DNA from: Kutzneria buriramensis
GTDB lineage: Bacteria > Actinomycetota > Actinomycetes > Mycobacteriales > Pseudonocardiaceae
Length of the DNA: 64,000 bases
Assembly: GCF_003387475.1 (NCBI RefSeq)
Contig: NZ_QUNO01000022.1
Location: 1-64,000, forward strand
Direction of reading: 5' to 3'
Shown piece after piece: positions 14,110-49,362 of this stretch. The first letter of the stretch is position 1; every line of letters begins with the position of its first letter. A program made the translations under genes and the position numbers. Below the pieces are notes generated by a model. The model was not told the origin of the DNA and did no database searches. It worked only from the letters and a program-made list of their open reading frames with translations.

Positions 14110-14142
14110 TAGACAGGACATCTAATGTCCCATTATAATGGG
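14110..14142 (+). promoter_or_regulatory. Sigma-70 promoter overlapped by palindromic operators
   Basis: TAGACA (14110-14115), an 18-bp spacer and TATAAT (14134-14139) form a near-consensus housekeeping promoter for the 14171 gene. The -10 lies inside a perfect 14-bp palindrome CCCATTATAATGGG (14129-14142), and the spacer contains GGACAT-CTA-ATGTCC (14116-14130). A repressor bound here would block RNA polymerase directly. Strikingly AT-rich for this window. Confidence 0.75.
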
Positions 14143-14170
14143 TCTATACAAGTTGGAGGAGGTGGAGATC

Positions 14171-17787: not shown

Positions 17788-19047
17788 ATGGAGGTGCCCG
17801 TCTTGACCAGCACGACCTTCCGCGACCTCACGGCCATCCAGCTGCCGAAGTGGGGCGCGGTCCGCGCGGCATCCGGCCCGGTCCCGTGGCTGCTCGTCGA
17901 CGACGACGGCCAGGCCGTATTGCCGGTGCACCGGTACTTCATCGACTTCGTCGCCCGGGACACCCGGCTCGGCAGCGTCCGCAGCTACGCCTACGACCTG
18001 CTTCGGTGGTGGCGCTGGCTGATCGTGGTCGACGTCGCGTGGGACAAGGCGACCTCGGCCGAGGTCCGCGACTTCGTGTTGTGGATGAAACAGGCCCGGA
18101 AAGTGCGGCGGCATGCCCGCACCGTCTCGGCGGCGACCGCCGGCACGCTCAATCCGGTCACCGGCAAGCAGTACCTCGACGACCAGTACAAGCCGCGCTC
18201 GATCGCCCACTCCAATGCGGTGCTGCGCGCCTTCTACGAGTTCTGGGTGCACGAGGACGGCACACCGCTGGTCAACCCGGTGCCACTGGACCGCTCCGGC
18301 CACCGGCGGCCGCACGCCCACCACAACCCGCTCCAGCCCTACCGGGCCGGCGAGGGCCGCCTGCGGTACAACCCCAAGATCCCCAAGCGGCGGCCCCGGG
18401 AGATGCCCGAGGACCGCTGGAAGGACTTCTTCGGCGCGCTGCGGTTCAACCGGGACCGTGCGATCACGGCCACCGCGGTCAGCAACGGCGCCCGCGCGGC
18501 CGAACTGCTGGGCGTGCGCGGTGTCGATCTGGACTGGGGCGAGCAGATGGTGCGGGTGTTCCGAAAGGGCACGGGCGCGGAGCAGTGGCTGCCGGTCAGC
18601 TCGGAGGCGTTGGTCTGGACCCGCCTCTACTTGGCAGAGCTGCCGCCCCTCGACCCGCAGGAACAGGTGTGGCGAACGCTTCGCCGACGGGACTACGGCG
18701 CCGGCCTGGAGTTCCAGCCGCTGAACTACGAGGCGTTGCGCGCGGTGCTCCGTCGGATCAACACGCTGCTGGGCACCAACTGGTCGATGCACGATCTGCG
18801 GCACACCGCCGCGCTGAGGATGGCTCGCGACGAGCGGCTTTCGCTGCGGGACGTGCAGGAGATCCTCGGGCACGCCCACCTGGCCACCACCGGCGACACC
18901 TACTTGATCGAGCAGCAGGCCGAGGTCGTACGCCGAGTCCAGTGCCACCTCGCGGATCGGGCTGAGCAAGCACAGCGCCCGGCCGCACCGAGCGCCGGCT
19001 ACGCCAGCACCGACCTGGACGTGCTGTTCGGCGGTGGTGCGGAATGA
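17788..19047 (+). CDS. Tyrosine recombinase/integrase (TnpA-like)
   Basis: 419 residues from ATG 17788; TTG 17803 is an alternative favoured by GGAGG at 17790-17794. The N-terminal ~190 residues are a SAM-like core-binding domain. The catalytic set is present: Arg in N-G-A-R-A-A-E-L-L, Lys in R-K-G-T-G, H-D-L-R-H-T-A, G-H-A-H and the nucleophile Tyr in T-G-D-T-Y-L. The stop overlaps the next start (ATGA), coupling it to the larger recombinase. It presumably acts with that protein in moving the 17701-22748 element. Confidence 0.92.
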   Translation: MEVPVLTSTTFRDLTAIQLPKWGAVRAASGPVPWLLVDDDGQAVLPVHRYFIDFVARDTRLGSVRSYAYDLLRWWRWLIVVDVAWDKATSAEVRDFVLWMKQARKVRRHARTVSAATAGTLNPVTGKQYLDDQYKPRSIAHSNAVLRAFYEFWVHEDGTPLVNPVPLDRSGHRRPHAHHNPLQPYRAGEGRLRYNPKIPKRRPREMPEDRWKDFFGALRFNRDRAITATAVSNGARAAELLGVRGVDLDWGEQMVRVFRKGTGAEQWLPVSSEALVWTRLYLAELPPLDPQEQVWRTLRRRDYGAGLEFQPLNYEALRAVLRRINTLLGTNWSMHDLRHTAALRMARDERLSLRDVQEILGHAHLATTGDTYLIEQQAEVVRRVQCHLADRAEQAQRPAAPSAGYASTDLDVLFGGGAE

Positions 19048-21497: not shown

Positions 21498-21501
21498 GAC
21501 G

Positions 21502-21534
21502 GGCGCGGGGTGGGCCGGCTGCCGGCCCACCCCG
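21502..21534 (+). terminator. 16-bp perfect hairpin after the recombinase genes
   Basis: CGCGGGGTGGGCCGGC (21502-21517) is complementary to 21519-21534 with one base between, just 5 bp after the stop of the second recombinase. There is no T-run, but such GC hairpins terminate transcription in many actinobacteria. Confidence 0.6.
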
Positions 21535-21620
21535 CGTGGCTGACACGCAGTCGCGTTTCTGCCCGTGATCACCTGCCGGTGCACTACCGTGGTAGGCCGA
21601 CTGCCGTAACCGGGGGACGC

Positions 21621-22679
21621 ATGGACGAGATCCTGAAGGCGATCGCCGCCGCACTGGCCCGGGAACAGGGTGAGCCAGCCGACGACGCGATGGAAACCGG
21701 CACGGGCGTCCGAGCCAACATCATGCGTCAGTTGCGGCTGCGAGTTAACGAGAGATTCACCGACAAACCAGGTCCACAGGACGTGCTCGCCAAGGCGTCG
21801 GCGCACCCGGACAGTCTGGGTTGGATCGCGTTGCTGGCTGAGGTACTTGATCGAGCCTGCAAGGCTGATCCCGTCTTCGCCGCCGAACTACTGGACTTGT
21901 GGGAACGAGCCGAGGCGGCTGCACCTGCGCCTATCTGGTCGGAACAGGCCGGGAGCAACGCCGGCGTGCCCAAGACCGGCAGCACAGGCGGCATTGCGGT
22001 GCTGGCCGGCGACGACGTCGATATGGCGGATGACGAAAACACGGATTCCGGCCACGAGAACGAACATGACAATGGCACGATCATTTATCGCCGGAACGAA
22101 ATTATCGTCAACCTCGGAAGTTTTGAGGCCCCTGGACAACATGAGCGGGTTGACGTAGACGTCTCGGTGTATCTCGACGTCGAGGAAGCCGCAGACCCGG
22201 TGGAGTCGGTCCTCGTCACGGTGCTCAGGAAGTACGGCTTCCAGGTCCATAGCTGGGGCGAACCGATCCGCAGCTCGTGGTTCCGCAGGATGCGGGTCTC
22301 CATCAACAAGGCCCGTCAGCACGAGCTGACGCGCCGACTGGCTGGGGACCTGAGCCGGGCTGTGGAGCTGCGGGCGGTCGACCAAGCGCAAGCCCAGGTC
22401 GACGCTGCCCAGGGCGATGTCGTCGCGAAGCTGTTGACCGCACTCGCGAGCACCTCTGCCGCAGCCATCCAGATCGGCTCGGTGCTGCTGATCAAGGTCG
22501 ACGGCGTGCCGATGGTACGCAACCTGACCCAGCTGGAACTTGCCCACCTGCAACGAAACCCGGACCTGGTACGCGATCCGGCAGCATGCCTGTCCGCCCT
22601 CCAACACGCTGCGGATCAAGCAGCACGGACCGCCGAGCCGCCAGAGCAGGACGGCAAGTCAGCCTTGCCCAGCGGATGA
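21621..22679 (+). CDS. Unknown protein carried by the Tn554-like element
   Basis: 352 residues; ATG 21621 with CGGGGGAC upstream. Three parts are visible: an N-terminal helical region (~1-100), an acidic low-complexity linker (~130-155) and a C-terminal domain with beta strands and a long amphipathic helix (I-I-V-N-L-G-S-F, V-D-V-D-V-S-V-Y-L-D-V; later S-V-L-L-I-K-V-D-G-V-P-M-V). No catalytic motif recognised. It could be the element's cargo, possibly a conflict or regulatory protein, or replace TnpC. It is separated from the recombinases by a terminator and may have its own promoter. Function unknown. Confidence 0.7.
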   Translation: MDEILKAIAAALAREQGEPADDAMETGTGVRANIMRQLRLRVNERFTDKPGPQDVLAKASAHPDSLGWIALLAEVLDRACKADPVFAAELLDLWERAEAAAPAPIWSEQAGSNAGVPKTGSTGGIAVLAGDDVDMADDENTDSGHENEHDNGTIIYRRNEIIVNLGSFEAPGQHERVDVDVSVYLDVEEAADPVESVLVTVLRKYGFQVHSWGEPIRSSWFRRMRVSINKARQHELTRRLAGDLSRAVELRAVDQAQAQVDAAQGDVVAKLLTALASTSAAAIQIGSVLLIKVDGVPMVRNLTQLELAHLQRNPDLVRDPAACLSALQHAADQAARTAEPPEQDGKSALPSG

Positions 22680-22964: not shown

Positions 22965-24881
22965 TCAGCGAGCAGAGCGCGTCGCGGGCTGAGCCCATCG
23001 CGTGATGGCGAACAGGCTGGTGGCCTGGGCCTTGTCCACGGCGCGGTGGAAGACCGTGTCGACCAGAGCACGGAAGGAGCGGGTGGCCGCGCGCCAGTCC
23101 TCGCCGCGCAGGCGGCCGCCGCGGTCGCCGAAGGCGTGGTGGTGCCCGCCGAGTGGGTCCACCTGGAGATCGCCGGCGTGGCCCGCGGTGCGCAGGGCCG
23201 CCTCGGTGAGCCCGAGGGACAGCTTGACCTGGGTTTGGATCACCGCGGCGTCGAGGGAGCCGTCCCACATCCGGAACTCTGCGTGGTCGTTGGGATGGCC
23301 GTGTACGGCGCTCAGGTTCAGCGCCACGCCGTGGCTGCTGTTGCGCTGGCGTACCTGGGTGACCGACTCGAACCCGGCGCTGGCCGTGGGATTCGGCGTG
23401 CACCACGCGGTTCCGCGATGGGTCCGGCGGTCCGGGTTGGTCGCCAGCCGGAACAGGGTGTCCTGGTAGGCGGCGACCAGGCGCAGCAGCCGGGCGTGGT
23501 TGGCCGCGAGGTGGTCGAAGTTTCCGGTGGCGACGTGGACGTGGCCACCGGTGCTGACCGTCGCGATGCCGCCGTGGGCGCGCACGATCGCGCAGACCGC
23601 TTCGATGTCCTGCCAGGTTTCCGGCGTGTCGAACAGGATCGGGCTGACGATCTCGCCGTCGACGGTGGAGTCCTCCTCCAGCCGCCAGCCGTCGCGGGCG
23701 TCGGTGTATCCGCCGATGCGGGGCTCGTGGTAGCCCCAGATCGTGCTGTCCTCGGCCAGGCCGGCGTCGGCCAGGTCGTGGGCGATGTTGCGTCGTGCGC
23801 CGTAGCTGGCCTCTTCGCCGAGTTCGAATTCGATCTCCACGCCGAAGCCGCGGCCGTGTCCGCGCGCGCCGAGCCCACCGGTGGCGTCCTCATACAGCAG
23901 GGGCACGGTGTCCTCGCCGCGTTCGATCCGGCGCAGCGTGTCCTGGTAGGCGGCTTGGAAGGCATCGAAGTCGTCCAGGTAGGACACCTCCGGCGCCGGC
24001 CAGGTCTGTTGGGCGCGTTGTTGCGCCGCCTGCGCCGCGGCGTGCTCGGCGCCCAGTTCGGACAGCACGGTGGTGCTGGCGCGGCGGGCGGTGGCCAGCC
24101 TGGTCGGCGAGCTGATGCTGCCGGTGACGTCGGCGGCGGCGAGTTGACGGTGCGCGCAGTGCGGTTGGCCGCAGGTGCAGTTCAGTCCGTCCGCGGCATG
24201 CTCGCCGGCGTCGGGGGAAGCAGGGGCGTAGACGGCGACGGCGCCGGTGATGTCGCCGGCGACGCCGGTGGCGGGGTCGTGGTACTGGCCGTGCACGTCG
24301 ACGAGGACGGGCTCGTCGGACAGCACCACCGCCTCGCGCACGAGCGACAGCAGCGGCGCGTACAGCATCCCGTGCTCGAAGTAGTGGCGGCGTTCGGGCA
24401 TGGTGGCCACGGGGCAGCGGTGTGCGGCGAGCCCGGTGAATTGGCCGCACCGGGAGCACCGGGTTCGTGGCCGGCCATCGCGCAGCAGTTCGGCGTACCA
24501 GCTCGTCCCGGCCTCGATCTCGGCCGCGGGCTGGGCCAGGACGCCGGTGGACCACAGGTAGTGCACCGACCGGTTGCGCTCGGCGGCGTCCTGCAGCTCG
24601 TTCCACGTCTGCGTCGGGATCCCGCTGACGCGGTAGGTGCCGCCGGTCCGGAAGGTCACTTCGAGCGTGCCGCCGGTGTTGTCGGTCGCGGGCTGGTAGG
24701 CGAGGTGTCTGACCAGGCGTTGGCGGTGTGGGGCGAGGTGTTCGATGCCGTCGGGGACGGGTTCGGGAGCGTCCTGGGCCGCGGCGCCGACAACGGCGCC
24801 GGCCGGGGGAACCGGGTGTGCAGGCGGCGGGCCGGGGTTCACCTGGTGGTGCTGGTGGTTGGCGCGCCTACCCGAGCCCAT
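22965..24881 (-). CDS. KTSC/SWIM/amidoligase multidomain protein, paralog 1
   Basis: 638 residues; ATG 24881 (GAGGA upstream), overlapping the upstream partner gene by 14 bp. Order: His-rich tag (N-H-Q-H-H-Q-V-N-P-G, 8-17); KTSC-like domain (~57-116); zinc ribbon C-S-R-C ... H-R-C-P (142-157); SWIM finger C-T-C-x4-C-A-H (235-244); Y-L-D-D-F-D-A-F (301-308); amidoligase core with F-G-V-E-I-E-F-E (346-353), D-G-E-I-V-S-P-I-L (408-416) and G-G-H-V-H-V (445-450). The fold is the glutamine-synthetase-like COOH-NH2 ligase family, which forms amide bonds with ATP. Last gene of the operon. Zinc modules suggest a nucleic-acid or protein target. Confidence 0.85.
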   Translation of the reverse strand: MGSGRRANHQHHQVNPGPPPAHPVPPAGAVVGAAAQDAPEPVPDGIEHLAPHRQRLVRHLAYQPATDNTGGTLEVTFRTGGTYRVSGIPTQTWNELQDAAERNRSVHYLWSTGVLAQPAAEIEAGTSWYAELLRDGRPRTRCSRCGQFTGLAAHRCPVATMPERRHYFEHGMLYAPLLSLVREAVVLSDEPVLVDVHGQYHDPATGVAGDITGAVAVYAPASPDAGEHAADGLNCTCGQPHCAHRQLAAADVTGSISSPTRLATARRASTTVLSELGAEHAAAQAAQQRAQQTWPAPEVSYLDDFDAFQAAYQDTLRRIERGEDTVPLLYEDATGGLGARGHGRGFGVEIEFELGEEASYGARRNIAHDLADAGLAEDSTIWGYHEPRIGGYTDARDGWRLEEDSTVDGEIVSPILFDTPETWQDIEAVCAIVRAHGGIATVSTGGHVHVATGNFDHLAANHARLLRLVAAYQDTLFRLATNPDRRTHRGTAWCTPNPTASAGFESVTQVRQRNSSHGVALNLSAVHGHPNDHAEFRMWDGSLDAAVIQTQVKLSLGLTEAALRTAGHAGDLQVDPLGGHHHAFGDRGGRLRGEDWRAATRSFRALVDTVFHRAVDKAQATSLFAITRWAQPATRSAR

Positions 24882-25455
24882 CGTCGTCCTCGGGCGCGCC
24901 GGCACCGGCCGGCTGGCTGCTGGCCAATGTGATGATCCCGGCCTGCGCGAGGCTGACCAGCAGTTCCCAGTCCTCGCCGGGGTCCAGCCACCAGATATCG
25001 CGTCCTTGGGGAGCGGCGATGCGGCCCACGGGCGTGTAGAACGTCGTGACCAGGATCAGGGGAATCGGGCCGTCCCACTGGTCCAGCACCGGCGGTCGGG
25101 AGAAGTCGCCCAGCAGCAGTTGGCGTTGCTCGGGGGTGCACTCGGCCAGCTGCGGCGCCGTGGCGAGCTCGGCCTGGCGGCGCACCTGCAGGTCGCAGGC
25201 GAGCCGGATGCGCGCGGCGGCGGCCTCGGTCGGGGTGGTGATGGCGCGGTAGCCGGGAACGAGCGCCTCGACCAGGGCGGCTGGTGTCTGCGCGTAGGTG
25301 CGCAGACTGCCGCCGGCGTGGATCATCTCGAAGCGCCACTGGGTGCCGTCGGGCCGTCGGGGGGCGTGCGGGGCGTCGGCGGCCGCGGCCGGGTTGCGCA
25401 GGATCACGGGGCCGTCGTCGTCGACCGCGGGGACGGAAGTCGGCGGTGTGGTCAT
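24868..25455 (-). CDS. Amidoligase-associated hypothetical protein, paralog A
   Basis: 195 residues; ATG 25455 with GGAGC upstream. Clear paralog of 31629-32216: shared W-R-F-E-M-I, D-L-Q-V-R, P-P-V-L and I-W-W-L-D-P-G-E-D-W-E-L-L-V. Soluble, no signal peptide, no catalytic motif recognised. Each copy directly precedes and overlaps an amidoligase gene (this one paralog 1, the other paralog 4), so the pair was probably duplicated as a unit and the protein may be a subunit or substrate-presenting partner of the ligase. Function unknown. Confidence 0.7.
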   Translation of the reverse strand: MTTPPTSVPAVDDDGPVILRNPAAAADAPHAPRRPDGTQWRFEMIHAGGSLRTYAQTPAALVEALVPGYRAITTPTEAAAARIRLACDLQVRRQAELATAPQLAECTPEQRQLLLGDFSRPPVLDQWDGPIPLILVTTFYTPVGRIAAPQGRDIWWLDPGEDWELLVSLAQAGIITLASSQPAGAGAPEDDDGLG

Positions 25456-25500
25456 CGTGGTGCTCCAGGTGGTCGAGGCGGGGTGGCGGGACGTTATCTT

Positions 25501-27210
25501 TCAGCCTCGCTGCCAGCGGGTGATGGCAAAGAGGCCGGTGGCCTGGGCCTTGTCCACCGATCGGTGGAACACCGTGTCGACCAGGGCTCGGAAGGAGCGG
25601 GTGGAGGAGCGCCATTCCTCGCCGCGCAGGCGGGCGCCGCGGCCGCGGCCGCCGACGGCGCGCCAGTGCTGTCCGACGCGCTCGATGTCGGTGGTGGCCC
25701 GCGGCTGCGCAGACGTGCGGAACGCGGCCTCGGTCAGTCCGAGGCTGAGCTTCACCTGGGTCTGGATGATCGCGGGGTCCAGCGAGCTGTCCCACATCCG
25801 GTACTCGACGTGGTCGCTGGCTCCGCCGTGCACGCCGCCGAGGTTGATCGCGTAGTTGTGGGAGTAGTTGTAGTCGCGGGCCTGCGTCAGCGTGGCGTAT
25901 CCGTTGGCGGGCGCCGGGCTCGGGGAACACCAGAACAAGCCCCGGTGCCGTCCCCGGATGGGGTTGGCCGCCAACCTGAACAACGTATCGGTGTGGGTGT
26001 CGACCAGGTGCAGCAGCCGGTTGTGGTGGCCGACCTCGTGGTCGAAGTTCGCGGTGCCGACGTGGACGTGGCCGCCGGTGCGGCGGGAGACGATCCCGCC
26101 GTGCTGGCGCACGATGTCGCACACGGTCTGCACGTCGGTCCAGGTCTGTGGGCTGTCGAACAGGATCGGGCTGACGATCTCGCCGGCGACGGTGCTGTCC
26201 GCCTCCAGCCGCCACCCGTCGCGGGCGTCGGTGTAGCCGCCGTCGCGACGGCCCTGGTGGTAGCCCAGCATCTCGGAGTGCTGGCTCAGGCCCGCGTCGC
26301 GCAGGTCACTGGCGATGCGGCGCAGTGCCGTGCGGGAGGTTCCGCCCTCGAAGTCGAACTCGAGCTCGACGCCGAAGCCGCGGACGCCCAGTCCGCCGGT
26401 GGCGTCCTCCAGCAGCAGCGGCACCGCTGGCTCGCCGGCGTCGTGGCGCCGGCGGGCCTGCCGGTATGCCTGCTGAAAGGCGTCGAAGTCGTCCAGGTAG
26501 GACACGGAGCCGGCGTCGGCGGCGGTATCGATGCTGGCTTGGTGCGCCCGCTGGGACGCCTGGTGGTCGGCGGCGAGCTCGGTGAGCACCGTGGTGGCGG
26601 CGCGGCGGCTGGCGGTGGCGCGTTGGCGGTGGTCGGGCACGACCTGGTCCAGGACGGCGGTTGCGACCTGGCGGGCGTGGCGGCAGTCGGAGATGCCGCA
26701 GCTGCAGAACAGGCGGGCGCCGAGGTCGTCGTGGTCGATGTGGGTGAGTGGGGCGGCGATGCGGACCTCGCCGGCGACCAGGTGGCCGCCCGAAGGGATG
26801 CGCGGGTCGTCGACGGCGGCGCGGACCGGCAGCAGGACGCCGCCGGCGAAGTTCACCGCGCCGGGCAGTGCATGCGGGTCCGGCATCAGCATCCCGATGG
26901 TGGGGGTGTGGCGGGTGACGTACGGGATGGTGTCGAGCGGGCAGTGGTGCGTGGTCGCGCCGACGAACTGGCCGCAGCGGGCGCACCGCTCGTTCGCCGA
27001 CGGGGCGGGCGGTGGCGGCAGTGTCGGGATGATCTCGGACTCGAGCAAGGTCGCGCGTCGCAGGCGGGTGTCGTAGTCGAGCGCGAGGTCTGCGCTCGTG
27101 GGCTCGGTGACGAGGGCGCCTGCGGCGCCGGCGGGCGCGGCGCCGCCCCCGGCGGGCGTGCCGGGGTGGACGTGGTGGTGTTGGTGGTCGGTGCGACGAC
27201 CGCTGCCCAT
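25501..27210 (-). CDS. SWIM/amidoligase multidomain protein, paralog 2
   Basis: 569 residues; ATG 27210. The same N-terminal tag (D-H-Q-H-H-H-V-H-P-G) is followed by a short linker; the KTSC-like domain is missing. Zinc ribbon C-A-R-C-G-Q-F-V-G ... H-H-C-P (from 76), SWIM C-S-C-G-I-S-D-C-R-H, Y-L-D-D-F-D-A-F, then the amidoligase core F-G-V-E-L-E-F-D, G-E-I-V-S-P-I-L-F and G-G-H-V-H-V. It follows paralog 3 by 11 bp. Loss of the KTSC domain while the core stays intact suggests divergence of binding rather than decay. Confidence 0.85.
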   Translation of the reverse strand: MGSGRRTDHQHHHVHPGTPAGGGAAPAGAAGALVTEPTSADLALDYDTRLRRATLLESEIIPTLPPPPAPSANERCARCGQFVGATTHHCPLDTIPYVTRHTPTIGMLMPDPHALPGAVNFAGGVLLPVRAAVDDPRIPSGGHLVAGEVRIAAPLTHIDHDDLGARLFCSCGISDCRHARQVATAVLDQVVPDHRQRATASRRAATTVLTELAADHQASQRAHQASIDTAADAGSVSYLDDFDAFQQAYRQARRRHDAGEPAVPLLLEDATGGLGVRGFGVELEFDFEGGTSRTALRRIASDLRDAGLSQHSEMLGYHQGRRDGGYTDARDGWRLEADSTVAGEIVSPILFDSPQTWTDVQTVCDIVRQHGGIVSRRTGGHVHVGTANFDHEVGHHNRLLHLVDTHTDTLFRLAANPIRGRHRGLFWCSPSPAPANGYATLTQARDYNYSHNYAINLGGVHGGASDHVEYRMWDSSLDPAIIQTQVKLSLGLTEAAFRTSAQPRATTDIERVGQHWRAVGGRGRGARLRGEEWRSSTRSFRALVDTVFHRSVDKAQATGLFAITRWQRG

Positions 27211-27221
27211 TCCTGGTCTCC

Positions 27222-29186
27222 TCACCGAGTCGCGCGGGCGCGCTGCCAGCGGGTGACGGCGAACAGGCCGGTCAGCTGGGCCCGGTCCTCGTCACGGTGG
27301 AACACGGTGTCCATCAGGGACCGGAACCCGCGGGTGGCCTGCCGCCACTGCTCGCCGACCAGGCGCCGCCGGCCGAACTGCGCGTGGTGGTCGCCGAGCC
27401 GGTCCACGCGGCCACCGTTGGGCCGCGACGGCGAGCCGGCGTCGCGGAACGCGGCCTCGGTCAGCCCGAGGGAGAGCTTGACCTGCGACTGGATGACCGC
27501 GGGGTCCAAGGTGGCATCCCACATCCGGTACTCGACATGGTCGCTGTGCCCGCCGAACACCGACTGCATGTTGACCGCCAGGTTGTGCCCGTTGTTGGCG
27601 TCTCGGGCATGGCCGATGTCGCGATAGCCCTGGGCGGGGATCCTGTTGGGACTGCACCAGCGCACGCCGCGGTGAGTGCCGCGTTCGGGGTTGGACGCCA
27701 GCCGGAACAGGGTGTCGGAGTGCGCGTCGACCAGTTCCATCAGCCGGTTGTGGTTTTCCACGGTGTGGTCGAAGTTTCCGGCTCCGACGTGGACGTGGCC
27801 GCCGGCGCGCACGCTGGCCTGGCCGCCGTGCCGGCGGACGATGTCGCAGACCGTGGCCAAGTTCCGCCAGGTTTCTGGGGTGTCCCACAGGATCGGGCTG
27901 ACGATCTCGCCGGCGACGGTGGCGTCGTGTTCCAGCCGCCAGGCGTTGGCGGCCTCGGTGTAGCCGTCCCGAGCGCTGGCGTGCCAGCGGTCCATAGTCC
28001 GGCTCTGGCTCAGGCCGGCCTGGTAGAGGTCTTCGGCGATCGACCGCAGGGCGGCCGCGCGGTTCACGTCGTGGGGGAGGTCGAACTCCAACTCGACGCC
28101 GAAAGGCCGGCCGCCGTCGCGGGAGCCGAGCCCGCCGGTGGCGTTCTCGATCAGGTAGGGGATGGGTGGTTCGCCGGCGGCGACTCGTTGCTGGGCTTGG
28201 CGATAGGCCGTCTCGAACGCGGACGGGTTGTCCATATAGGACATCGCGGCGGTCCCGGGCTCGGATCGCGAGCGCTCCTGAGCGCGGACGGACTCGTCGT
28301 GTTCGGCGGCGAGTTCGCCCAGCACCGCCGTGCTCGCCCGCCGGTCGGGCGTTCGCACGCGTGGGGAGCGCATCAGGTCGACCAGTTCGGCCGCGGCGAG
28401 TTGGGCGTGCTGGCAGCCGGCGCGGCCGCAGCCGCAGGCCAGGTCCGCGGCGGCCGCGGCCGGATCGAACTCGGCCCGGGGGCCGGGGATGGTGGCGTCG
28501 CCGAACACCGCGTAGCCGTGGGGATCGTCGGGCAGCCGGTAGTAGCCCTCCAGCGGGATGCGGAGCTGGGCGTCGTCGCCGAAGTCGCAGTGCTCGCGCA
28601 GCGCGGTGGCGTTGGGGATGGCGAGTTGGCCGTGGTCGCTGACGTAGACGCGCCGCGCCGCGGTGGTGACCGGGCAGTGGTGCTCGGTCTCGCCGACGAA
28701 TTGCCCGCAGTGCGGGCAGTGGGCCTGGGCACCGCGCGACGTCGCGGCGGCGTTGGTGGTCGGTTCCTCCTGCGCTGCGGCGGGTTCGGCCGTGTCGGGT
28801 TGGGGGCGCAGGTCGTCCTCATCCAGCGGGTGGGAGGGGAAGGCGCCGAAGACGTCGTTGTTGACGGCGCGGGAGACGCTCGCGTCGTCACCAGCCTGTT
28901 GGATCCGCCGCCACAGCTCGACGGGCACGTCGGCGTACCGCATGGTCTGGAGGTCGCCGTTCGTGACGTTCCGGAAGGTCACGTCGAGCAGTCCATGGTC
29001 GGCGTCGTTGTCGGCGTAGCTGAAACGGACTCCGTCGATGAGCCGTGAACTCGGCGTGGACAGGTGCTCGACGCGGACCGGTTGAGGCTGCTCGGACGGC
29101 GCGGTGTCCTGCAGAGTGGCCACGCCGGCGCCGAGGCCGGGATCGACGTGGTGGTGCTGGTGGTGGGATCGACGACCGCCGCCCAT
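27222..29186 (-). CDS. KTSC/SWIM/amidoligase multidomain protein, paralog 3
   Basis: 654 residues; ATG 29186 with GGGAGGAG upstream. Tag S-H-H-Q-H-H-H-V-D-P-G at residues 7-17; KTSC-like segment ~45-115 (L-L-D-V-T-F-R-N-V ... M-R-Y-A-D-V-P-V-E-L-W); ribbon C-P-H-C-G-Q-F-V-G ... H-H-C-P; SWIM C-G-C-G-R-A-G-C-Q-H; amidoligase core F-G-V-E-L-E-F-D-L, G-E-I-V-S-P-I-L-W, G-G-H-V-H-V. Closest by eye to paralog 4 (almost identical C-terminus ending F-A-V-T-R-W-Q-R versus F-A-I-T-R-W-Q-R). Intact active-site motifs. Confidence 0.85.
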   Translation of the reverse strand: MGGGRRSHHQHHHVDPGLGAGVATLQDTAPSEQPQPVRVEHLSTPSSRLIDGVRFSYADNDADHGLLDVTFRNVTNGDLQTMRYADVPVELWRRIQQAGDDASVSRAVNNDVFGAFPSHPLDEDDLRPQPDTAEPAAAQEEPTTNAAATSRGAQAHCPHCGQFVGETEHHCPVTTAARRVYVSDHGQLAIPNATALREHCDFGDDAQLRIPLEGYYRLPDDPHGYAVFGDATIPGPRAEFDPAAAAADLACGCGRAGCQHAQLAAAELVDLMRSPRVRTPDRRASTAVLGELAAEHDESVRAQERSRSEPGTAAMSYMDNPSAFETAYRQAQQRVAAGEPPIPYLIENATGGLGSRDGGRPFGVELEFDLPHDVNRAAALRSIAEDLYQAGLSQSRTMDRWHASARDGYTEAANAWRLEHDATVAGEIVSPILWDTPETWRNLATVCDIVRRHGGQASVRAGGHVHVGAGNFDHTVENHNRLMELVDAHSDTLFRLASNPERGTHRGVRWCSPNRIPAQGYRDIGHARDANNGHNLAVNMQSVFGGHSDHVEYRMWDATLDPAVIQSQVKLSLGLTEAAFRDAGSPSRPNGGRVDRLGDHHAQFGRRRLVGEQWRQATRGFRSLMDTVFHRDEDRAQLTGLFAVTRWQRARATR

Positions 29187-29218
29187 GGTGTTCTCCTCCC
29201 TCGTGCGGTGTGGTGGCG

Positions 29219-31642
29219 CTAGCGCTGCCAGCGGGTGATGGCGAACAGGCCGGTCAGCTGGGCCCGGTCCTCGTCACGGTGGAACACGGTGTCCATCAGG
29301 GACCGGAACCCGCGGGTGGACGCGCGCCAGTCCTCGCCGTGCAGGCGCCGGCGGCCGAAGACCCGTCGGTGCGCGCCGACGTGGTCCACGTGGCCGTCGT
29401 TGGGCGCGGAGGTGCTTCCGGCTTCTCGAAAGGCGGCCTCGGTGAGGCCCAGCGAGAGCTTGATCTGCGACTGGACGATGCTGGGCTCCAGACTCCCGTC
29501 CCACATGCGGTATTCCACGTGGTCGCTTCGCCTGCCGGACACCGACTGCATGTTCACCGCCAGGTTGTGCCCGTTGTTGGCGTCGCGGGCATGGCCGATG
29601 TTGCGGTATCCCTGGCTGGGAACGTGGTTGGGGCGGCACCAGTAGGTGCCGCGGTGGGTGCCGCGTTCGGGGTTGGACGCCAGCCGGAACAGCGTGTCGG
29701 AGTGCGCGTCGACCAACTGCATCAGCCGGTTGTGGTTGCCCACGGTGTGGTCGAAGTTCCCGATGCCGACATGCACGTGGCCGCCGGTGCGGGTGGTGGC
29801 ACGGCCGCCATGTCGTCGGATGATGTCGCAGACGGTCTGCAGGTCGTTCCAGGTTTCCGGGGTGTCCCACAGGATCGGCGAGACGACTTCGCCGGAGACC
29901 GTGCAGTCCTCTTCCAGCCGCCATCCGTTGCGGGCCTCGGTGTATCCGGCGTATTCGCTGGAGTGGTAGCCGCCGACCATGGTGGTGGTGCTCAGACCGG
30001 CGGCATGCAGGTCGCGCGCGATGGCGTTGAGGCGGCTCCGTTGGTTGGGGCCGGACAGGTCGAACTCCAACTCGACGCCGAAGGCCCGGCCGCCGTCGCG
30101 GGACCCAAGGCCGCCGGTGGCGTTCTCGGTCATGTAGGGGACCGCGGGCTCGCCGTTGGCCACGCGCGCCAGCGCCTGTCGGTAGGCGGCCTGGAACGCG
30201 TCAGGGTTGCCGCTGTAGGTGGTGACCGCGGCGGGCGCGGCGCGGGCGGCGTCTTGGGCTTGGGTGGAGGCGAAGTGCTCGGCGGCGAGCTCGCCGAGCA
30301 CGGCCGTTGTGGCCCGCCGGTCGGGGCTGTTGACCAGCGGCGAGTGCACCCGCTCGATGAGGTCGGCGGCCGCCAGCTGTGCATGCCGGCACGCTGGCTG
30401 GCCGCACGTGCAGGACAGCCCCGCCGCGGCGGCGGCGGGGTCGACCGGCACCTGGCGCCCGTAGACGTTGACGGTGCCCTCGACGAAATGCACGGAGTTC
30501 CCGTCGTCCTCCGGGGTGACGTCGACGGCGGCGGTGATGGGTACGGGGATGGACACCTCGCCGAAGGCGCAGTGGCGTTGCATCGCGGTGATCGACGGGC
30601 AGTTCAACGTGATCGGGCCGCTGAAGTAGGAGGTCGACGCAGCCGGGACCGGGCAGTCGTGTGTCGTGATCGCGCCGACGAACTGGCCGCAGGTTGGGCA
30701 TCGGCGTTGACCCCGAATGCCGTGGAACTGGTTGCTCAGCGCCAGAACGGTGTCGTAGCGGTGCGAGCACGGATTCTCGCCGCACGTGCAGTCCAGGTGC
30801 GCGATCGCGTCGTCCCACACGATGTCGTTCGTGTCGCGGAGCAGCTGCGCGTGCCCGGTGACTTGGTGGGGCTCGCCGCTGTCGTTGTCGTATCCGGCGG
30901 TGACCGGGACCAGCAGCGGGCCGTGGGCGAAGTCGGCGTTGGCGCGCATCGTGGAGACGTCGGGCATCGTCACGGTGCCGGGGATGGCCAGGTGTGGGCC
31001 ACCGCCGGCGTTCGGCCGCTGATCCTGGATCGTGATCGAGGAGCTGATGGGGCAGTGGTGTGCCGCAGCGCCGACGAACTGCCCGCAGGTGGGGCAATGC
31101 TGTTGCCCAGGGCCGATTCCGGGCAGCGCGGCGGGGACGCGGGCACGGGCGATGAGGGTGTCGTTGTCACCGACGAGGTGGTTGCTGAAGTGCCCGACGA
31201 CCTCGGTGGAGACGAGATGGCCGACGCTGCCGCCGGCGGTGTGGGTCTGCTGGAGGCGGTCCCACATCGGGCCGGGAACCTCGGCGAACCGATAGGTGCT
31301 GCCGTTGCTGCGCCAGCAGACCTCCAGGGTGCCGAGCTGGTTCGGCCCGGAGCCCGGGGCGTAGGACAGCAGCCGGACCGCGGAGGAGTCCGGCAGGATG
31401 TGCTCGACGCCGTCGGTGGTGAATTGTCCCTGGTCGCCGGCGGCGGCGCGCAGCCGCTGGTAGTTGTCCGCGTCGGCCCGGGCGAGCTCGGCCTCTTCGG
31501 CGGCCACGGCGTCGACGTCGCGCTGGGTGACCTGGCCCAGTTCGTCGTCGGGCTCGTCGACCAGCGCGATGCCTCCGCCAGCACCGCCCGTGCCCGGGTC
31601 GACGTGGTGGTGCTGGTGGTGGGAGCGGCTACCGGCGCCCAT
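29219..31642 (-). CDS. KTSC/double-SWIM/amidoligase multidomain protein, paralog 4
   Basis: 807 residues, the longest copy; ATG 31642 overlaps the partner gene by 14 bp. Tag S-H-H-Q-H-H-H-V-D-P-G; KTSC-like ~84-146; then the zinc-ribbon plus SWIM module occurs twice: ribbon C183/C186 with SWIM C285/C287/C292/H294, and ribbon C315/C318 with SWIM C411/C413/C418/H420. Amidoligase core F-G-V-E-L-E-F-D-L, G-E-V-V-S-P-I-L-W, G-G-H-V-H-V. The internal duplication explains the extra ~150 residues over paralog 3. Predicted ATP-dependent amide ligase; substrate unknown. Confidence 0.86.
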   Translation of the reverse strand: MGAGSRSHHQHHHVDPGTGGAGGGIALVDEPDDELGQVTQRDVDAVAAEEAELARADADNYQRLRAAAGDQGQFTTDGVEHILPDSSAVRLLSYAPGSGPNQLGTLEVCWRSNGSTYRFAEVPGPMWDRLQQTHTAGGSVGHLVSTEVVGHFSNHLVGDNDTLIARARVPAALPGIGPGQQHCPTCGQFVGAAAHHCPISSSITIQDQRPNAGGGPHLAIPGTVTMPDVSTMRANADFAHGPLLVPVTAGYDNDSGEPHQVTGHAQLLRDTNDIVWDDAIAHLDCTCGENPCSHRYDTVLALSNQFHGIRGQRRCPTCGQFVGAITTHDCPVPAASTSYFSGPITLNCPSITAMQRHCAFGEVSIPVPITAAVDVTPEDDGNSVHFVEGTVNVYGRQVPVDPAAAAAGLSCTCGQPACRHAQLAAADLIERVHSPLVNSPDRRATTAVLGELAAEHFASTQAQDAARAAPAAVTTYSGNPDAFQAAYRQALARVANGEPAVPYMTENATGGLGSRDGGRAFGVELEFDLSGPNQRSRLNAIARDLHAAGLSTTTMVGGYHSSEYAGYTEARNGWRLEEDCTVSGEVVSPILWDTPETWNDLQTVCDIIRRHGGRATTRTGGHVHVGIGNFDHTVGNHNRLMQLVDAHSDTLFRLASNPERGTHRGTYWCRPNHVPSQGYRNIGHARDANNGHNLAVNMQSVSGRRSDHVEYRMWDGSLEPSIVQSQIKLSLGLTEAAFREAGSTSAPNDGHVDHVGAHRRVFGRRRLHGEDWRASTRGFRSLMDTVFHRDEDRAQLTGLFAITRWQR

Positions 31643-32216
31643 CGTCGCCGTCCTGGTCCGGGTCGGGCGCCGGCATCGGCGGCATGAGGTCGTCGCGGGC
31701 GTGCAGGCGGATCACGTCGGCTTGAGCGAGGGTGACCAGCAGCTCCCATTCGTCGCTGGGATCCAGCCACCACACGTTCCCCTCGGGGGCCGGGGTGGGC
31801 CGGTAGGGCGCGTAGAACGTCTTGACCAGCACCAGCGGGACCGGCGCGTCCCACCAGACCAGCACCGGCGGCTGCGAGAAGTTGCCCAGCAGCACCTCAC
31901 GCTGCTCGGCGGTGCACTCCACGATTTGTGGCCCCGCGGCGAGCGCGGCCTGCAGGCGCACCTGCAGGTCGCAGGCCGTGCGCAGCCGGGCGTGCGCGCG
32001 CTCGGTCGGGGCGACCAGACCGTCGTAGCCGGGGATCAGGGCCGCGACCAGGTCGGCTGCGGTGTCGGCGTAGGCACGCCAGGCTCCTCCGCCGAAGATC
32101 ATCTCGAACCGCCAGGGCCGGCCGGCGGGGTGTGGGGGCACAGGCGGGACGTCGGCCGCTTCGGCGGGGTTGCGCTGGACGGCGAAGCGTGGGCTGGTCG
32201 AGATCGGCTCGGTCAC
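31629..32216 (-). CDS. Amidoligase-associated hypothetical protein, paralog B
   Basis: 195 residues; GTG 32216 overlaps the previous stop (GTGA). Same family and length as 24868-25455: W-R-F-E-M-I, D-L-Q-V-R, P-P-V-L, V-W-W-L-D-P-S-D-E-W-E-L-L-V. The C-terminus is a D/P-rich tail. Lies between the DUF4417-like gene and paralog 4. See paralog A for the reasoning on a ligase partner role. Confidence 0.7.
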   Translation of the reverse strand: MTEPISTSPRFAVQRNPAEAADVPPVPPHPAGRPWRFEMIFGGGAWRAYADTAADLVAALIPGYDGLVAPTERAHARLRTACDLQVRLQAALAAGPQIVECTAEQREVLLGNFSQPPVLVWWDAPVPLVLVKTFYAPYRPTPAPEGNVWWLDPSDEWELLVTLAQADVIRLHARDDLMPPMPAPDPDQDGDDGRR

Positions 32217-33352
32217 GGGGTTCCTCCGGCGGGTGCGTGGCCGTCGAGCAGGTCGGCGTAGTAGCGGACGTTGGTGTGGAAGGCGTCCCGGGTCAGGGCG
32301 TGCACGTCTTGGCGGCCCTGGTCGGTCATCACCGCGCCGCGGCGGGCGTACTGCAGCGCGTTCTGGGCGACCAGGTGCAGCCGCTCGCCGAACAGGGCGC
32401 CCAGCGTGCGGATCCGATCCGGGCGTGAGGCGCCGACCAGCCAGATCGGCATGTCGGCGGGCAGGGTGCCGGCCAGGTAGGCCAGGCCGGGCACGACGAG
32501 TTCGTTCCATTCCTCGGCGTCGCGGAAGGTCTGCAGGTTGACCGCGACCTGCGCCGGCTCGGTGTCAGCGACCCAGTCCAGGTAGCGCTCGAGGTCTTCC
32601 AGCCGGGCCCAGTACAGGCACGGCGCGGTCGGCACGCCGAGGTCGGCCAGCTCGGCGGCGATCAGGAGGTTGCGCCGGTAATTGATCAGGTGCTCGGTGC
32701 GGGGCTGGTTGAGGTACATGCTGTAGTTGCTGGTCAGCACGAGGTCCCAGCCCTGGGCGGCGATGGACAGCATCAGCCCGTCGCGGTGCCGGCCGCTCCA
32801 GTACTTCTCCACGAGCGGGTCCGTGCCGTAGCCGACGAGGATGGCCTTGGCGGTGTCGGGGATGGCGAAGGCCTGGTGGGCGGTCGTGTCGTGCAGTTTC
32901 GGCATGATCTTGCCGGTCGCGGTGGACAGCACGCGGCGCATGCCCACGGCGTAGGCGGGCCAACCGAGGCCGTCGTCGAGCGGGGCGATGTCGTCGCCGT
33001 CGCCCATCGGGATGAACCGCGGGAGCCCGGTGGGGGCCGGCTGGGTGACGTGCAGGTCGGTGAAGCGCAGGGTGCCGCCGACCGCGGCGATCCAGTCGCC
33101 GACGTCGGGTCGGGAGCCGCAGCGGATGGGGCAGGTGCGGCAGGCGCCCCCGTCGCGCACCGCGGCCCGGGACGGGTCTTCTGCTCGGGCGCAGCTGCAG
33201 TACTCGCAGCTGGAGGACGTGCCGCTGCAGATCGGCTCGACCGCGCGGGGGTTGTCGATCCAGAAGTCGCAGACCGCGCAGTTGCAGCCGGGCGCCGGGC
33301 GGGGCCCGGTCGGCGCGCCGAGGGTCGGTGTGGACAGGAACACCGGGGTCAT
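32213..33352 (-). CDS. Cys-rich DUF4417-like protein, possibly TIM-barrel/TGT-like
   Basis: 379 residues; ATG 33352 overlaps the ParB-like stop. The first ~80 residues hold about ten cysteines (C-N-C-A-V-C, I-C-S-G, C-E-Y-C-S-C, C-R-T-C-P-I-R-C), enough for a metal or Fe-S cluster. The rest has Y-W-S-G-R-H-R-D-G, S-N-Y-S-M-Y-L-N-Q-P-R, alternating strands and helices, and L-V-G-A-S, similar to DUF4417 proteins of plasmids and suggestive of a TIM barrel like the tRNA-guanine transglycosylase family. A base-exchange or other nucleic-acid-modifying activity is conceivable; not shown. Always coupled here to ParB-like and amidoligase genes. Confidence 0.6.
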   Translation of the reverse strand: MTPVFLSTPTLGAPTGPRPAPGCNCAVCDFWIDNPRAVEPICSGTSSSCEYCSCARAEDPSRAAVRDGGACRTCPIRCGSRPDVGDWIAAVGGTLRFTDLHVTQPAPTGLPRFIPMGDGDDIAPLDDGLGWPAYAVGMRRVLSTATGKIMPKLHDTTAHQAFAIPDTAKAILVGYGTDPLVEKYWSGRHRDGLMLSIAAQGWDLVLTSNYSMYLNQPRTEHLINYRRNLLIAAELADLGVPTAPCLYWARLEDLERYLDWVADTEPAQVAVNLQTFRDAEEWNELVVPGLAYLAGTLPADMPIWLVGASRPDRIRTLGALFGERLHLVAQNALQYARRGAVMTDQGRQDVHALTRDAFHTNVRYYADLLDGHAPAGGTP

Positions 33353-34644
33353 CCCGCCTCCTTGATGGTGGTGGGTTGGGACGGTGCTGGCGTGGCCAGC
33401 AGGTCGGTGGTCTCGGCCAGCCGCAGCTGCAGGGATCCCACGGCGTAGCGGGGCGGTCGGCGTCCGGCGCGCAGCTCGCCGTTCAGCTCGCGCAGCCGGT
33501 CCAGCACGTCGGTTACCAGGTGCGGGTCGATGCCGGCGTGCTCCCGGGCGTCGTCGGCGCCGACCGAGTCGTCGTCCTGCGGCCCGCCGGCGACGGTGGT
33601 GTGGCCGGCGTCGTCGTCCGGGTGCGGCGTGGTGGCGAGGTCGGTGCGGCTGAGCTTTTCCGCACGGGCGGCGTTGGCGGCGTCGTGCAGCGCGACCGCG
33701 GCTTCGACGGCCTGCTCGACTGGCGGCAGCGCGGCGCGGGCGCCGATGGCGGCCGCGGATGCCTGCGCGGCCGCGGTCGCCGCGGCCAGCAGTTCCGGGC
33801 GGCCCAGGGCCTTCACCGCGGTCCACAGTTCGGCGACGTTCTGGCGGGGATCGCGGGCCAGGCGCACCAGCCCGGTCCGGGTGGTCAGGGCGATCTGGTG
33901 GGCGTCCAGGTCGGTGGACAGCTCCCGGGGCAGGTGTTGGAAGGCGGCCACCAGTTGCCGTGCCTTGCGGGGCCCGAAGGACACACCGAGCCGGCGCAGC
34001 ACGAGCTCCCACGGGGCGCCGACCTGCGGCGCGTGACGCAGGCGGGTCTTGTCCAGCAGCGTCCAGCGCGCGACCGGGTCGTCGGTGTCGGCCAGGTCGG
34101 CCTCGGGCACGGGCGCGCCGGCCTCGGTCAGCCGGGTGGCCAGCACGGCGCAGCGCTCCAGCAGCAGCGCCGAGGCGAGTTCGCCGGGTTGGTAGTCCTG
34201 GCGGGCAAGGTTCTCGATCAGTTGCCAGGCGTTGCGTTCTTCCTCGGTCAGCGGGCCGGGGCAGATCATCGCCGGCACGCGCTGGAAGTAGGTGTTGTCC
34301 GGGTCCTCGCGCAGTCCGATGCGGCAGCAGCGCAGCCGGCCTTCGCCGGTGACCAGCCGCAGGTGGACCTCGCCGGTGTCGGCGTCGGTCAGCTCCTCGA
34401 CCAGGATCGGGGAGAGCACGCCGTGCACGGCGATCGACGACAGCAGCTCGCCCAGGCCGTTGAGGCTGGTGGACTCGCTGGGGCCGCGGCCTTGCAGGCC
34501 GGTGTGCACGGCGCCGGGACCGGTGACCGGCAGCCACGCGAACCGGCGCTGCGCGAGCCGCGGCGAGCTGTCCAGGCCGCGCACGGCGGCCTCCAGCCCG
34601 CCGGCTTCGGCGCGCTGCTCCTCCGCGGCCAGGGCGGTGCTCAT
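33349..34644 (-). CDS. ParB/sulfiredoxin-fold domain protein
   Basis: 431 residues; ATG 34644, overlapping both neighbours by 4 bp. Residues ~50-130 read as a ParB N-terminal domain: G-L-G-E-L-L-S-S-I-A-V-H-G-V-L-S-P-I-L-V, V-T-G-E-G-R-L-R (the G-E-R-R-type phosphate site) and A-W-Q-L-I-E-N-L-A-R. The middle has a helical DNA-binding-like region, and the C-terminus is acidic. It is distant from the partition locus (61 kb) and not paired with a ParA, so a partition role is unlikely. ParB-fold proteins act as CTPases or nucleases; here it may guide the modification enzymes to DNA (inference). Confidence 0.8.
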   Translation of the reverse strand: MSTALAAEEQRAEAGGLEAAVRGLDSSPRLAQRRFAWLPVTGPGAVHTGLQGRGPSESTSLNGLGELLSSIAVHGVLSPILVEELTDADTGEVHLRLVTGEGRLRCCRIGLREDPDNTYFQRVPAMICPGPLTEEERNAWQLIENLARQDYQPGELASALLLERCAVLATRLTEAGAPVPEADLADTDDPVARWTLLDKTRLRHAPQVGAPWELVLRRLGVSFGPRKARQLVAAFQHLPRELSTDLDAHQIALTTRTGLVRLARDPRQNVAELWTAVKALGRPELLAAATAAAQASAAAIGARAALPPVEQAVEAAVALHDAANAARAEKLSRTDLATTPHPDDDAGHTTVAGGPQDDDSVGADDAREHAGIDPHLVTDVLDRLRELNGELRAGRRPPRYAVGSLQLRLAETTDLLATPAPSQPTTIKEAG

Positions 34645-35618
34645 GTCGACCTGCCGGACGTGCGGCGTTTGGGCGCCGTGCCGAGGAGGTTGACGTTGTG
34701 CCCGTAGGCGTCCCAGAAGATCGGCTCGAACGGGCCGTGGTCGGTCAGCTGCGTCATGGTGGTGCACAGCAGGCCGAGGCGGTCGAGGTGCTGGTTGATG
34801 TACGGGTCCTCGGCGCAGAATCCGAGCAGTTGTTCGGCCCGGCGTTCCAATGTGGACTGTGCCTTGTCCGCGAAGACGATCAGCACCCGGGGGAAGCGGC
34901 GGTAGTGGCGCCGCCAGTTGGGCACGGTGTCGCCGGCGCGGCGGGCCTCCAGCGGGATGTAGGTCAACAGCCGGGTGTAGTTGCGGATCTTCTCGGTCAG
35001 TGCCAGCACGGTCTCGGTGCCGCGATCGGCCTCGATCAGGCAGACCACACCGGAGTCGCCGTCGGCGTCGTCGGTCAGCACGAACCGGATCCGCAGGTCG
35101 GAGACGAGGTTGGAGGCCTCGCTCTCGCCGTCGCGCACGCGGTGTCCGATCTCGTTGTCCCAGTCCAGGTAGCTGATGGGCACGTTTCGGGCGCGGCCGT
35201 GGCGGACGAACTCCACACCGATCTGGTTGGCGAGCAGGGTGTGGCTCTGCAGGTTGGAGTCGGCGCGGCCGGCGGTCATCACGTAGGCCCGCGGCCGCAG
35301 GGCGGCGGCCACGCGGGCGCGGCCGGCCGGGGTGACCCACCACGCCTTGGCGTTGCGCTCGTGCTGGACCGGCGTGCTGGCCGCCAGTTCGGCGGCGGCG
35401 AGCCTCTGGAGGTTGCGGTGGAGGAACTCGCGCCGGTAGTCGGCGGCTACCAGGGTGTGCAGCTGCTGGGTGGTCATCAGCCGGTGCTGGGTCAGGCAGG
35501 CGAGGATCTGCTCCTGCATCGGCGACAAAGTGACCTGGCCGGTGAGCAGCTTGGCGCTCCACATCTTGGGCGTGATGTTGCCGCCGCGGGGACGGCGCGG
35601 GGTGCTGGTGGCGGGCAT
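34641..35618 (-). CDS. Replication-relaxation family protein
   Basis: 325 residues; ATG 35618 with AGGAG upstream; the longer open frame is a shadow of the neighbouring coupling gene. N-terminal winged helix (~30-100: Q-I-L-A-C-L-T-Q-H-R-L-M-T-T-Q-Q-L-H, R-N-L-Q-R-L), then a domain with D-L-R-I-R-F-V-L and I-E-A-D-R-G-T-E-T-V, the E-x-D layout of the Replic_Relax family found beside coupling ATPases on actinobacterial plasmids. Thought to bind plasmid DNA, possibly replacing a classical relaxase; the biochemical role is unsettled. Sits between coupling ATPase and ParB-like gene. Confidence 0.75.
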   Translation of the reverse strand: MPATSTPRRPRGGNITPKMWSAKLLTGQVTLSPMQEQILACLTQHRLMTTQQLHTLVAADYRREFLHRNLQRLAAAELAASTPVQHERNAKAWWVTPAGRARVAAALRPRAYVMTAGRADSNLQSHTLLANQIGVEFVRHGRARNVPISYLDWDNEIGHRVRDGESEASNLVSDLRIRFVLTDDADGDSGVVCLIEADRGTETVLALTEKIRNYTRLLTYIPLEARRAGDTVPNWRRHYRRFPRVLIVFADKAQSTLERRAEQLLGFCAEDPYINQHLDRLGLLCTTMTQLTDHGPFEPIFWDAYGHNVNLLGTAPKRRTSGRST

Positions 35619-35625
35619 GGTGCTC

Positions 35626-49352: not shown

Positions 49353-49362
49353 GGCGTTCTCC

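Follow-up and report, generated by a model that had tools for sequence, protein, structure and literature searches.

An operon of amidoligases and partner proteins

The window analysed here comprises the first 64,000 nucleotides (nt) of contig C22 (207 kb) from the 12-Mb genome of Kutzneria buriramensis, and a single operon can be read on its minus strand, running from 38076 to 22965. In this direction it encodes a coupling-type ATPase, a replication-relaxation (Replic_Relax) protein, a ParB-fold protein, a DUF4417-type protein, partner 2, amidoligases of 807, 654 and 569 amino acids (aa), partner 1 and an amidoligase of 638 aa (Table 1). Neighboring frames overlap by 4 nt at the ParB/DUF4417 and DUF4417/partner junctions and by 14 nt at both partner/ligase junctions, so that the partner-ligase pair looks like a duplicated unit. 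An earlier interpretation made from the letters and open reading frames of the window (the sequence-only reading) had described four paralogous amidoligases of these lengths and positions, two paralogous 195-aa partners and a tightly overlapping operon, and our analysis bears this out: all genes lie on the minus strand, the ligase frames contain no internal stops, each ligase exceeds the Pfam cut-off for Amidoligase_2 (PF12224; 33.4-39 bits against 22), and the partners are homologous with 54% identity. At E 0.001, these four are the only Amidoligase_2 matches in the whole 12-Mb genome.

All four window ligases contain the motifs FGVE[LI]EF, GE[IV]VSPIL and GGHVHV, in agreement with the E-[IL]-E-F, G-E-[IV]-V-S-P and G-G-H-V-H-V signatures reported before. 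The core residues E-x-E, W..E.D..V..E..SP, HV and E-x-R, which include the acidic and basic residues of the fold, are invariant in the 13 ligase sequences aligned. The sequence-only reading had named loss of ATP-binding residues as a finding that would speak against it, and no loss of these core residues was seen. We regard ATP-dependent amide ligation as the putative activity of the window ligases.

The KTSC-zinc-ribbon-SWIM architecture claimed for these proteins stood in part. The motifs CxxCGQFxG..HxCP and CxCx4CxH, on which the zinc-ribbon and SWIM assignments in the window are based, occur in all four ligases and are doubled in the 807-aa copy, but the corresponding profiles stayed below their cut-offs, with 21.7, 14.2 and 12.0 bits for KTSC (cut-off 25; no match in the 569-aa copy) and 12.8 bits in one window copy for SWIM (cut-off 19.6; a further score was 12.6). 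KTSC passes in a relative, locus L017 of the survey described below (28.1 bits against 25), whose ligase shares the zinc-ribbon motif and has a longer form of the SWIM motif, and the ligases of L018 and L011 carry a SWIM-type motif. The zinc-ribbon motif is absent from all 13 Streptomycetaceae ligases tabulated, of which four show just a degenerate CxG..CxH form. The predicted layout is real and common to a distant relative, but it is not constant. An additional N-terminal motif, M/VG-x-G-x-R-x-x-H-Q-H-H, opens 29 ligase frames (e.g., window 31607-31642, minus strand), with a variant in one more (L023), and the expression used found it on no non-ligase frame in C22 and 20 further loci; it may bind a metal, tag the protein for recognition or act as a signal for transfer.

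The AlphaFold2 model of partner 1 is confident (predicted local distance difference test, pLDDT, 86.2; predicted template modelling score, pTM, 0.79) and shows a compact alpha/beta fold. Relatives of the partner also occur in four genomes with no ligase within the 20 kb taken (L068-L071). Protein starts of the QPxGGxFA type are common in mobile elements, and the partner-family gene of L069 adjoins proteins with such a start.

The identities proposed earlier for the ParB-fold and DUF4417-type proteins are carried by relatives, whereas the window proteins themselves score below the cut-offs: ParB_N reaches 22.3 bits in the window (cut-off 26.3) and 51.2 in L018, and DUF4417 (PF14386) 16.5 bits in the window (cut-off 28.9) against 30.7 and 50.3 in homologues from the same alignment (L018). 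The model of the DUF4417-type protein (pLDDT 77.3, pTM 0.79) has alternating strands and helices after residue 110, as in a barrel, while its Cys-rich residues 1-80 are of low confidence (pLDDT below 50). A CxCxxC motif with a ParB neighbor invites comparison with DpdA/DpdB, in which the DUF4417-type protein would act as a TGT in base exchange; no TGT family was among the Pfam matches of the window and relatives' proteins scanned. Searching solved structures by sequence gave no match to the ligase core at E 1 and chance-level best matches for the partner (E 0.41) and the DUF4417-type protein (E 0.23).

Table 1 Genes of the amidoligase operon and other features of the window.
Feature	Coordinates	Strand	Basis
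Amidoligase, 638 aa: HQHH N-terminus, KTSC-like, zinc-ribbon, SWIM-like, Amidoligase_2	22965..24881	-	Pfam and motifs
Partner protein 1, 195 aa, compact alpha/beta	24868..25455	-	Homology to partner 2, AlphaFold2 model
Amidoligase, 569 aa: HQHH N-terminus, zinc-ribbon, SWIM-like, Amidoligase_2, no KTSC match	25501..27210	-	Pfam and motifs
Amidoligase, 654 aa: HQHH N-terminus, weak KTSC, zinc-ribbon, SWIM-like, Amidoligase_2	27222..29186	-	Pfam and motifs
Amidoligase, 807 aa: zinc-ribbon and SWIM-like stretch twice	29219..31642	-	Pfam and motifs
Partner protein 2, 195 aa, probable GTG start	31629..32216	-	Homology to partner 1
DUF4417-type protein: Cys-rich N-terminus, predicted alternating beta/alpha barrel-like domain	32213..33352	-	Pfam below cut-off, AlphaFold2
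ParB-fold protein	33349..34644	-	ParB_N E 1.4e-4 (below cut-off), PHROG ParB-like 2.1e-6, NCBIfam parB_part 2e-6 (below cut-off)
Replic_Relax (replication-relaxation) protein, probably starting near 35629	34641..35981	-	E 7.6e-17
Coupling-type ATPase, Walker A GKSRSGKS	35626..38076	-	Homologous to 'ATP/GTP-binding protein' of Streptomyces plasmids
Gamma-glutamyl cyclotransferase (GGACT/AIG2-like; GGCT)	14138..14605	+	Pfam GGACT E 1.1e-18; YGTLR and LEG motifs kept
94-aa protein between cyclotransferase and amidotransferase	14595..14879	+	Relative in the corresponding position in L005 (blastp 41% over 74 aa)
Stand-alone class-II (GlmS-like) glutamine amidotransferase, N-terminal Cys	14929..15963	+	GATase_6 E 5.4e-16; Cys2, HTRW, HNG, TDTE kept
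Three-gene block, two tyrosine recombinases	17788..22679	+	Phage_integrase E 1.4e-17 and 2.9e-12; third gene without match
NlpC/P60 and SLT protein (peptidoglycan-type enzyme)	42810-44027	-	Upstream of operon, same strand
VirB4-like ATPase	46749-49541	-	AAA_10 E 1.2e-41; upstream of operon, same strand

Cyclotransferase and amidotransferase as candidate erasers

The coordinates of the sequence-only reading left out a gamma-glutamyl cyclotransferase and a class-II glutamine amidotransferase. Three GGACT matches over the cut-off occur in the 12-Mb genome, the window copy being the best-scoring, so chance proximity of the cyclotransferase to the ligases is unlikely. In the Streptomyces plasmids L022, L024 and L086, both genes stand directly after the last ligase, on the opposite strand. 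Sequence signatures are well kept among relatives, since YG[TS] is found in nine of nine cyclotransferases and the LEG pattern in eight, and all four amidotransferase patterns, with the expressions used, in eight of nine proteins (L017 without the second; the L024 protein was read from an annotated, probably too short, start). The window amidotransferase matches the GlmS subfamily model at E 4.6e-20, below the cut-off of that model, and for the L018 amidotransferase EgtC was the best among NCBIfam models, yet far below its cut-off.

Recurrence of the operon in related loci

The gene-neighborhood survey that had been suggested for this operon was run via the ligase. Scanning the genome collection gave 17 loci, with the ligase outside a giant frame in ten (L005-L011, L014, L017, L018), inside giant frames in L012, L013, L015 and L016, and distant or split in L019-L021. 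Ten plasmid records matched, six of which were taken (operon-type L022, L023, L024 and L086; giant-type L025 and L026), and one of two matching phage records was taken (L027). The operon-type set thus consists of 15 loci (the window, ten genome loci and four plasmids) from actinobacteria plus one member of the Bacillota, excluding giant-type loci, L019-L021 and L027. Genes were scored with profiles built from the window, L022, L023 and L024, which therefore match by construction; the L018 amidotransferase was scored by inspection and Pfam, and L086 by BLAST and annotation.

The operon recurs in these 15 loci and therewith in two phyla, and its genes look intact. Partners are present in all 15 (the L018 match being weak, E 4e-5), and DUF4417 and ParB in 14 each, both missing in L017. 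The cyclotransferase accompanies the ligase in 12 of 15 loci (missing in L006, L014 and L023) and the amidotransferase in 11 (missing in L006, L011, L014 and L023); the sequence of L006 ends directly after the last ligase. The ATPase and Replic_Relax genes were found in 12 loci and are missing in L017, L018 and L023 within the DNA examined. Plasmid L023 shows no such pair within 14 kb, with FtsK/SpoIIIE and C40-peptidase genes about 30 kb away. L017 consists of partner, ligase, cyclotransferase and amidotransferase without ParB or DUF4417, whereas L018 (Desulfovirgula, Bacillota) holds all six families without the ATPase/Replic_Relax pair in 14 kb, and from these two cases the enzymes look like the unit. 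Outside the count, L020 combines DUF4417, the ATPase and a split ligase. The 15 loci are not independent, as the ligases of L008 and L009 are identical and L006, L007, L022, L024 and L086 are close relatives of them.

Ligase copy number varies from one to four per locus, so that the four copies emphasized by the sequence-only reading do not define the system, relatives having one, two or three. In the tree, the window ligases group together with moderate support (81/87) and the Streptomycetaceae copies fall in other, well-supported clades, which argues that copies probably multiplied separately in each lineage. Identity between the window and its relatives is 42-57% for ligases, 39-54% for partners and 49-59% for DUF4417, and lower for the ATPase (34-36%), Replic_Relax (30-34%) and the VirB4-like gene (30%). 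Purifying selection, with ratios of non-synonymous to synonymous substitution rates of 0.06-0.27, acts on Streptomycetaceae orthologues of ligases, partner, DUF4417, ParB and ATPase. The ligase family is rare: its alignments matched at least three of 60 relatives and at least two of 396 genomes of the phylum, and the partner at least six of 394 genomes of the class, counts that include the window's genome and are lower bounds as few candidates were scored per genome. Viral contigs contained no confirmed relatives of the ligase or DUF4417 alignments.

Ligase domains in giant proteins

Homologous ligase domains also occur at the C-terminal end of two giant proteins, one of 1955 aa (L012) and one of at least 3511 aa (L067), where the called partner starts 31 nt and 4 nt downstream, respectively, and in L025 a ligase domain and a papain-fold toxin domain lie within one protein. 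In the window and plasmids, by contrast, the operon ligases stand alone and measure 334-807 aa (annotated or called). Of the seven giant-type loci scanned, two have a partner; L026, the third with a C-terminal ligase domain, shows none beside it, and no ParB or DUF4417 neighbor of the giant-protein ligases was found in the DNA examined. As the partner directly follows the giant-protein ligase in L012 and L067, just where an immunity gene would lie, a role of the partner as ligase inhibitor is plausible, limited by the five giant-type loci without a partner and the four genomes with a partner and no ligase.

Two unusually long open frames of 27,324 codons (G020:C1:4825897-4907868, minus strand) and 23,843 codons (G024:C4:161142-232670, minus strand), neither with an N or a stop, contain amidoligase-like matches, in two places of the former and one of the latter. 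Their second-position GC is low as in coding DNA (0.50 and 0.51, respectively), and third-position GC is raised in G020 (0.82) and not in G024 (0.72).

Discussion

Iyer et al. are said to have predicted in 2009 a phage module of amidoligase, GATase_6 and GGACT. We found these three families close together in the phages phiEco32 (phi32_84, 83, 77) and LUZ24 (gp18, 19, 22), and the window has the same trio, albeit 7 kb apart and on opposite strands. The claim that no well-known system is matched was thus only partly right: the set is enlarged, but with the genes at 14.1-16.0 kb the window contains the phage-like trio. In other respects the two differ. The phage modules additionally hold a COOH-NH2_lig (PF14395) type-2 gene and, by record annotation, an ATP-grasp/RimK-type gene for which Pfam support is weak or none, whereas among the 28 window proteins scanned, a subset of the open reading frames, no COOH-NH2_lig or ATP-grasp match passed the cut-off (one weak ATP-grasp match, 12.4 against 23.1 bits, fell on the Replic_Relax protein). 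Elements of the window type, in turn, carry a ParB gene and one to four ligases whose N-termini bear additional modules, and two profile comparisons each showed no likeness of the partner or the DUF4417-type protein to hypothetical proteins of phiEco32 and LUZ24. Judged by its predicted gene content, the operon represents the phage amidoligase-amidotransferase-cyclotransferase kind in a mobile-element form, to which ParB, DUF4417, a partner and multiple ligases have been added.

Phages with an amidoligase, an amidotransferase and an ATP-grasp gene (excerpts of PMC3890496), or with an amidoligase, an amidotransferase, a cyclotransferase and a glutathione synthase, there read as nitrogen-metabolism genes (excerpts of PMC10945688), have been described. 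Passages of PMC12704722 report ParB-CTPase-fold/DUF4417 fusions in phages, the same two domains that are adjacent but encoded by separate genes in most of our loci. The combination of amidoligase, KTSC and SWIM was not found in the literature searched, a result confined to those papers, and the paper there that names amidoligase alongside conjugative plasmids and Streptomyces concerns a phosphonate antibiotic.

Our preferred, though still tentative, reading is that the operon provides a mobile element with reversible amide tagging, probably of the gamma-glutamyl type, together with its own erasers. It starts from the observed gene content, the kept core residues, purifying selection among Streptomycetaceae copies and recurrence in two phyla, from which we infer how the ligases react, are aimed and are restrained, and how the reaction is reversed. 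The amidoligases, with a glutamine-synthetase-like fold by family, would use ATP to activate a carboxyl group, which is then linked to an amine, most likely by a bond of the gamma-glutamyl type; the cyclotransferase would strip gamma-glutamyl groups as 5-oxoproline; and the amidotransferase would either feed ammonia from glutamine or hydrolyse a gamma-glutamyl amide, as does EgtC, which removes a gamma-glutamyl group. Ligases are paired with a cyclotransferase in BtrJ/BtrG, where gamma-glutamyl is put on and then taken off, and with a class-II amidohydrolase in EgtA/EgtC; EgtC-type hydrolysis and the BtrJ/BtrG-type pairing together suggest writers and erasers here as well. The KTSC, zinc-ribbon and SWIM front ends, ParB and the DUF4417-type protein might aim the ligases at their target, and the partner might bind and restrain the ligase. 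A first guess at the target is a protein or peptide, perhaps DNA-bound, that is met during establishment of the element. A more specific version, which we consider doubtful, is a previously undescribed modification system of conjugative and other mobile elements in two phyla, in which a ParB-DUF4417 complex guides between one and four amidoligases to a DNA-bound protein or to the transferred DNA itself, with two dedicated erasers removing the amide tag after establishment and the partner as a safety catch.

Several points weigh against reversible tagging. The candidate erasers of the window lie 7 kb from the ligases on the opposite strand, and both are missing in L014 and L023, as is the amidotransferase in L011. 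The GlmS-like amidotransferase of the window would fit ammonia supply as well as hydrolysis. Aiming by zinc modules cannot be general, given that all 13 tabulated Streptomycetaceae copies are devoid of the zinc-ribbon motif, and the partner is not ligase-specific, given the four genomes in which it occurs without one. All loci were picked by the ligase, so the counts tell what accompanies the ligase and not the reverse, and the substrate and activity of the ligases are predicted.

Amide modification of DNA, one of the possible roles named by the sequence-only reading, is rather unlikely in our estimate. Here the ligases would couple a carboxyl-bearing base in the element's DNA to ammonia or an amine, ParB and DUF4417 serving as DNA-side factors, and so protect the incoming strand. 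The proven phage CmoX/CmoY DNA amide system resembles the operon in its ATP-dependent amide ligase, its ParB-domain neighbors and a possible use of glutamine-derived ammonia, accompanied as it is by ParB-domain genes and ligases with a glutamine-hydrolysing domain (passages of PMC12783734). The phage ParB-DUF4417 fusions (PMC12704722, in part) and the SWIM-like and zinc-ribbon motifs of the ligases point the same way. However, CmoY is asparagine-synthetase-like and belongs to a different ligase family, CmoA had no match in the window's genome, and two C5-methylases were found on other contigs and none on C22, which weakens the idea, although no search was made for carboxyl handles of another kind; moreover, the cyclotransferase would have no evident role, and the giant-protein ligases show no ParB or DUF4417 neighbor in the DNA examined. 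An unlikely alternative is that, as suggested for the phiEco32 amidoligase, cell-wall or envelope peptides are modified so that competing phages or elements are kept out. The shared enzyme trio argues for it, as does the proposal of Iyer 2009 cited in excerpts of PMC11318856, which also list amidoligase and cyclotransferase in a phage; an experimental test of that proposal was not found in the literature searched. The NlpC/P60 and SLT enzyme within the element would suit an envelope role but equally fits a transfer channel, and ParB, DUF4417 and the zinc motifs would be left without a role.

An effector-immunity role, in which toxic ligases travel with the DNA and the partner is the antidote, seems quite improbable to us. 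The partner genes behind the giant proteins L012 and L067 and the union of ligase and papain-fold toxin domains in L025 speak for it, but most giant-type loci scanned, L026 among them, have no partner, the numbers are unequal (four ligases and two partners in the window, three or two ligases and one partner in Streptomyces loci), delivery of operon ligases has no support here, and erasers would be superfluous. Least of all do we expect biosynthetic cargo, in which gamma-glutamyl protection of a small molecule or peptide and its later removal would follow the butirosin or ergothioneine pathways; the BtrJ/BtrG and EgtA/EgtC pairings and the weak EgtC match of L018 agree with this, whereas the annotated neighbors in the four operon-type plasmid loci, many of them 'hypothetical', show no common biosynthetic cluster or transporter.

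Phage amidoligase modules in the literature searched are predictions without a proven substrate. The same enzymes now appear on plasmids of sequenced Streptomyces and Nonomuraea strains, with recurring partners, candidate erasers and a candidate inhibitor, and the question of the ligase target becomes directly testable in laboratory strains. One enzyme here links mobile-element biology, ParB-fold NTPases and giant toxin-like proteins.

Other features of the window

The ATPase at 35626 has no meaningful Pfam match, and we infer its identity as a coupling protein from the Walker motif and its position. The VirB4-like ATPase and the NlpC/P60-SLT protein upstream are consistent with a conjugation channel, and just beyond the window C22 carries genes homologous to Tad/type II secretion-type genes from a Nonomuraea plasmid. 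Of the proposed link to conjugation, the adjoining conjugation-type genes and the recurrence of the operon stand, but linkage to ATPase and Replic_Relax is not universal. The recombinase block between the candidate eraser genes and the operon looks like a Tn554-type or recombinase-trio insertion, likely acquired later, and is probably not a component of the system.

A tRNA-Gly (ccc) called by ARAGORN at 31797-31869 (minus strand) is taken as false, because it sits within the 3' half of the partner 2 gene and has no Rfam match at gathering scores. PADLOC models of known anti-phage defence systems gave no match to the proteins scanned, namely two of the four ligases, partner 1, DUF4417, ParB, cyclotransferase and amidotransferase. 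A methylase at 7531-9102 shows a strong PglX/type IIG match (E 1.3e-102) and has homologues downstream of the ligases in L008, L022, L024 and L086.

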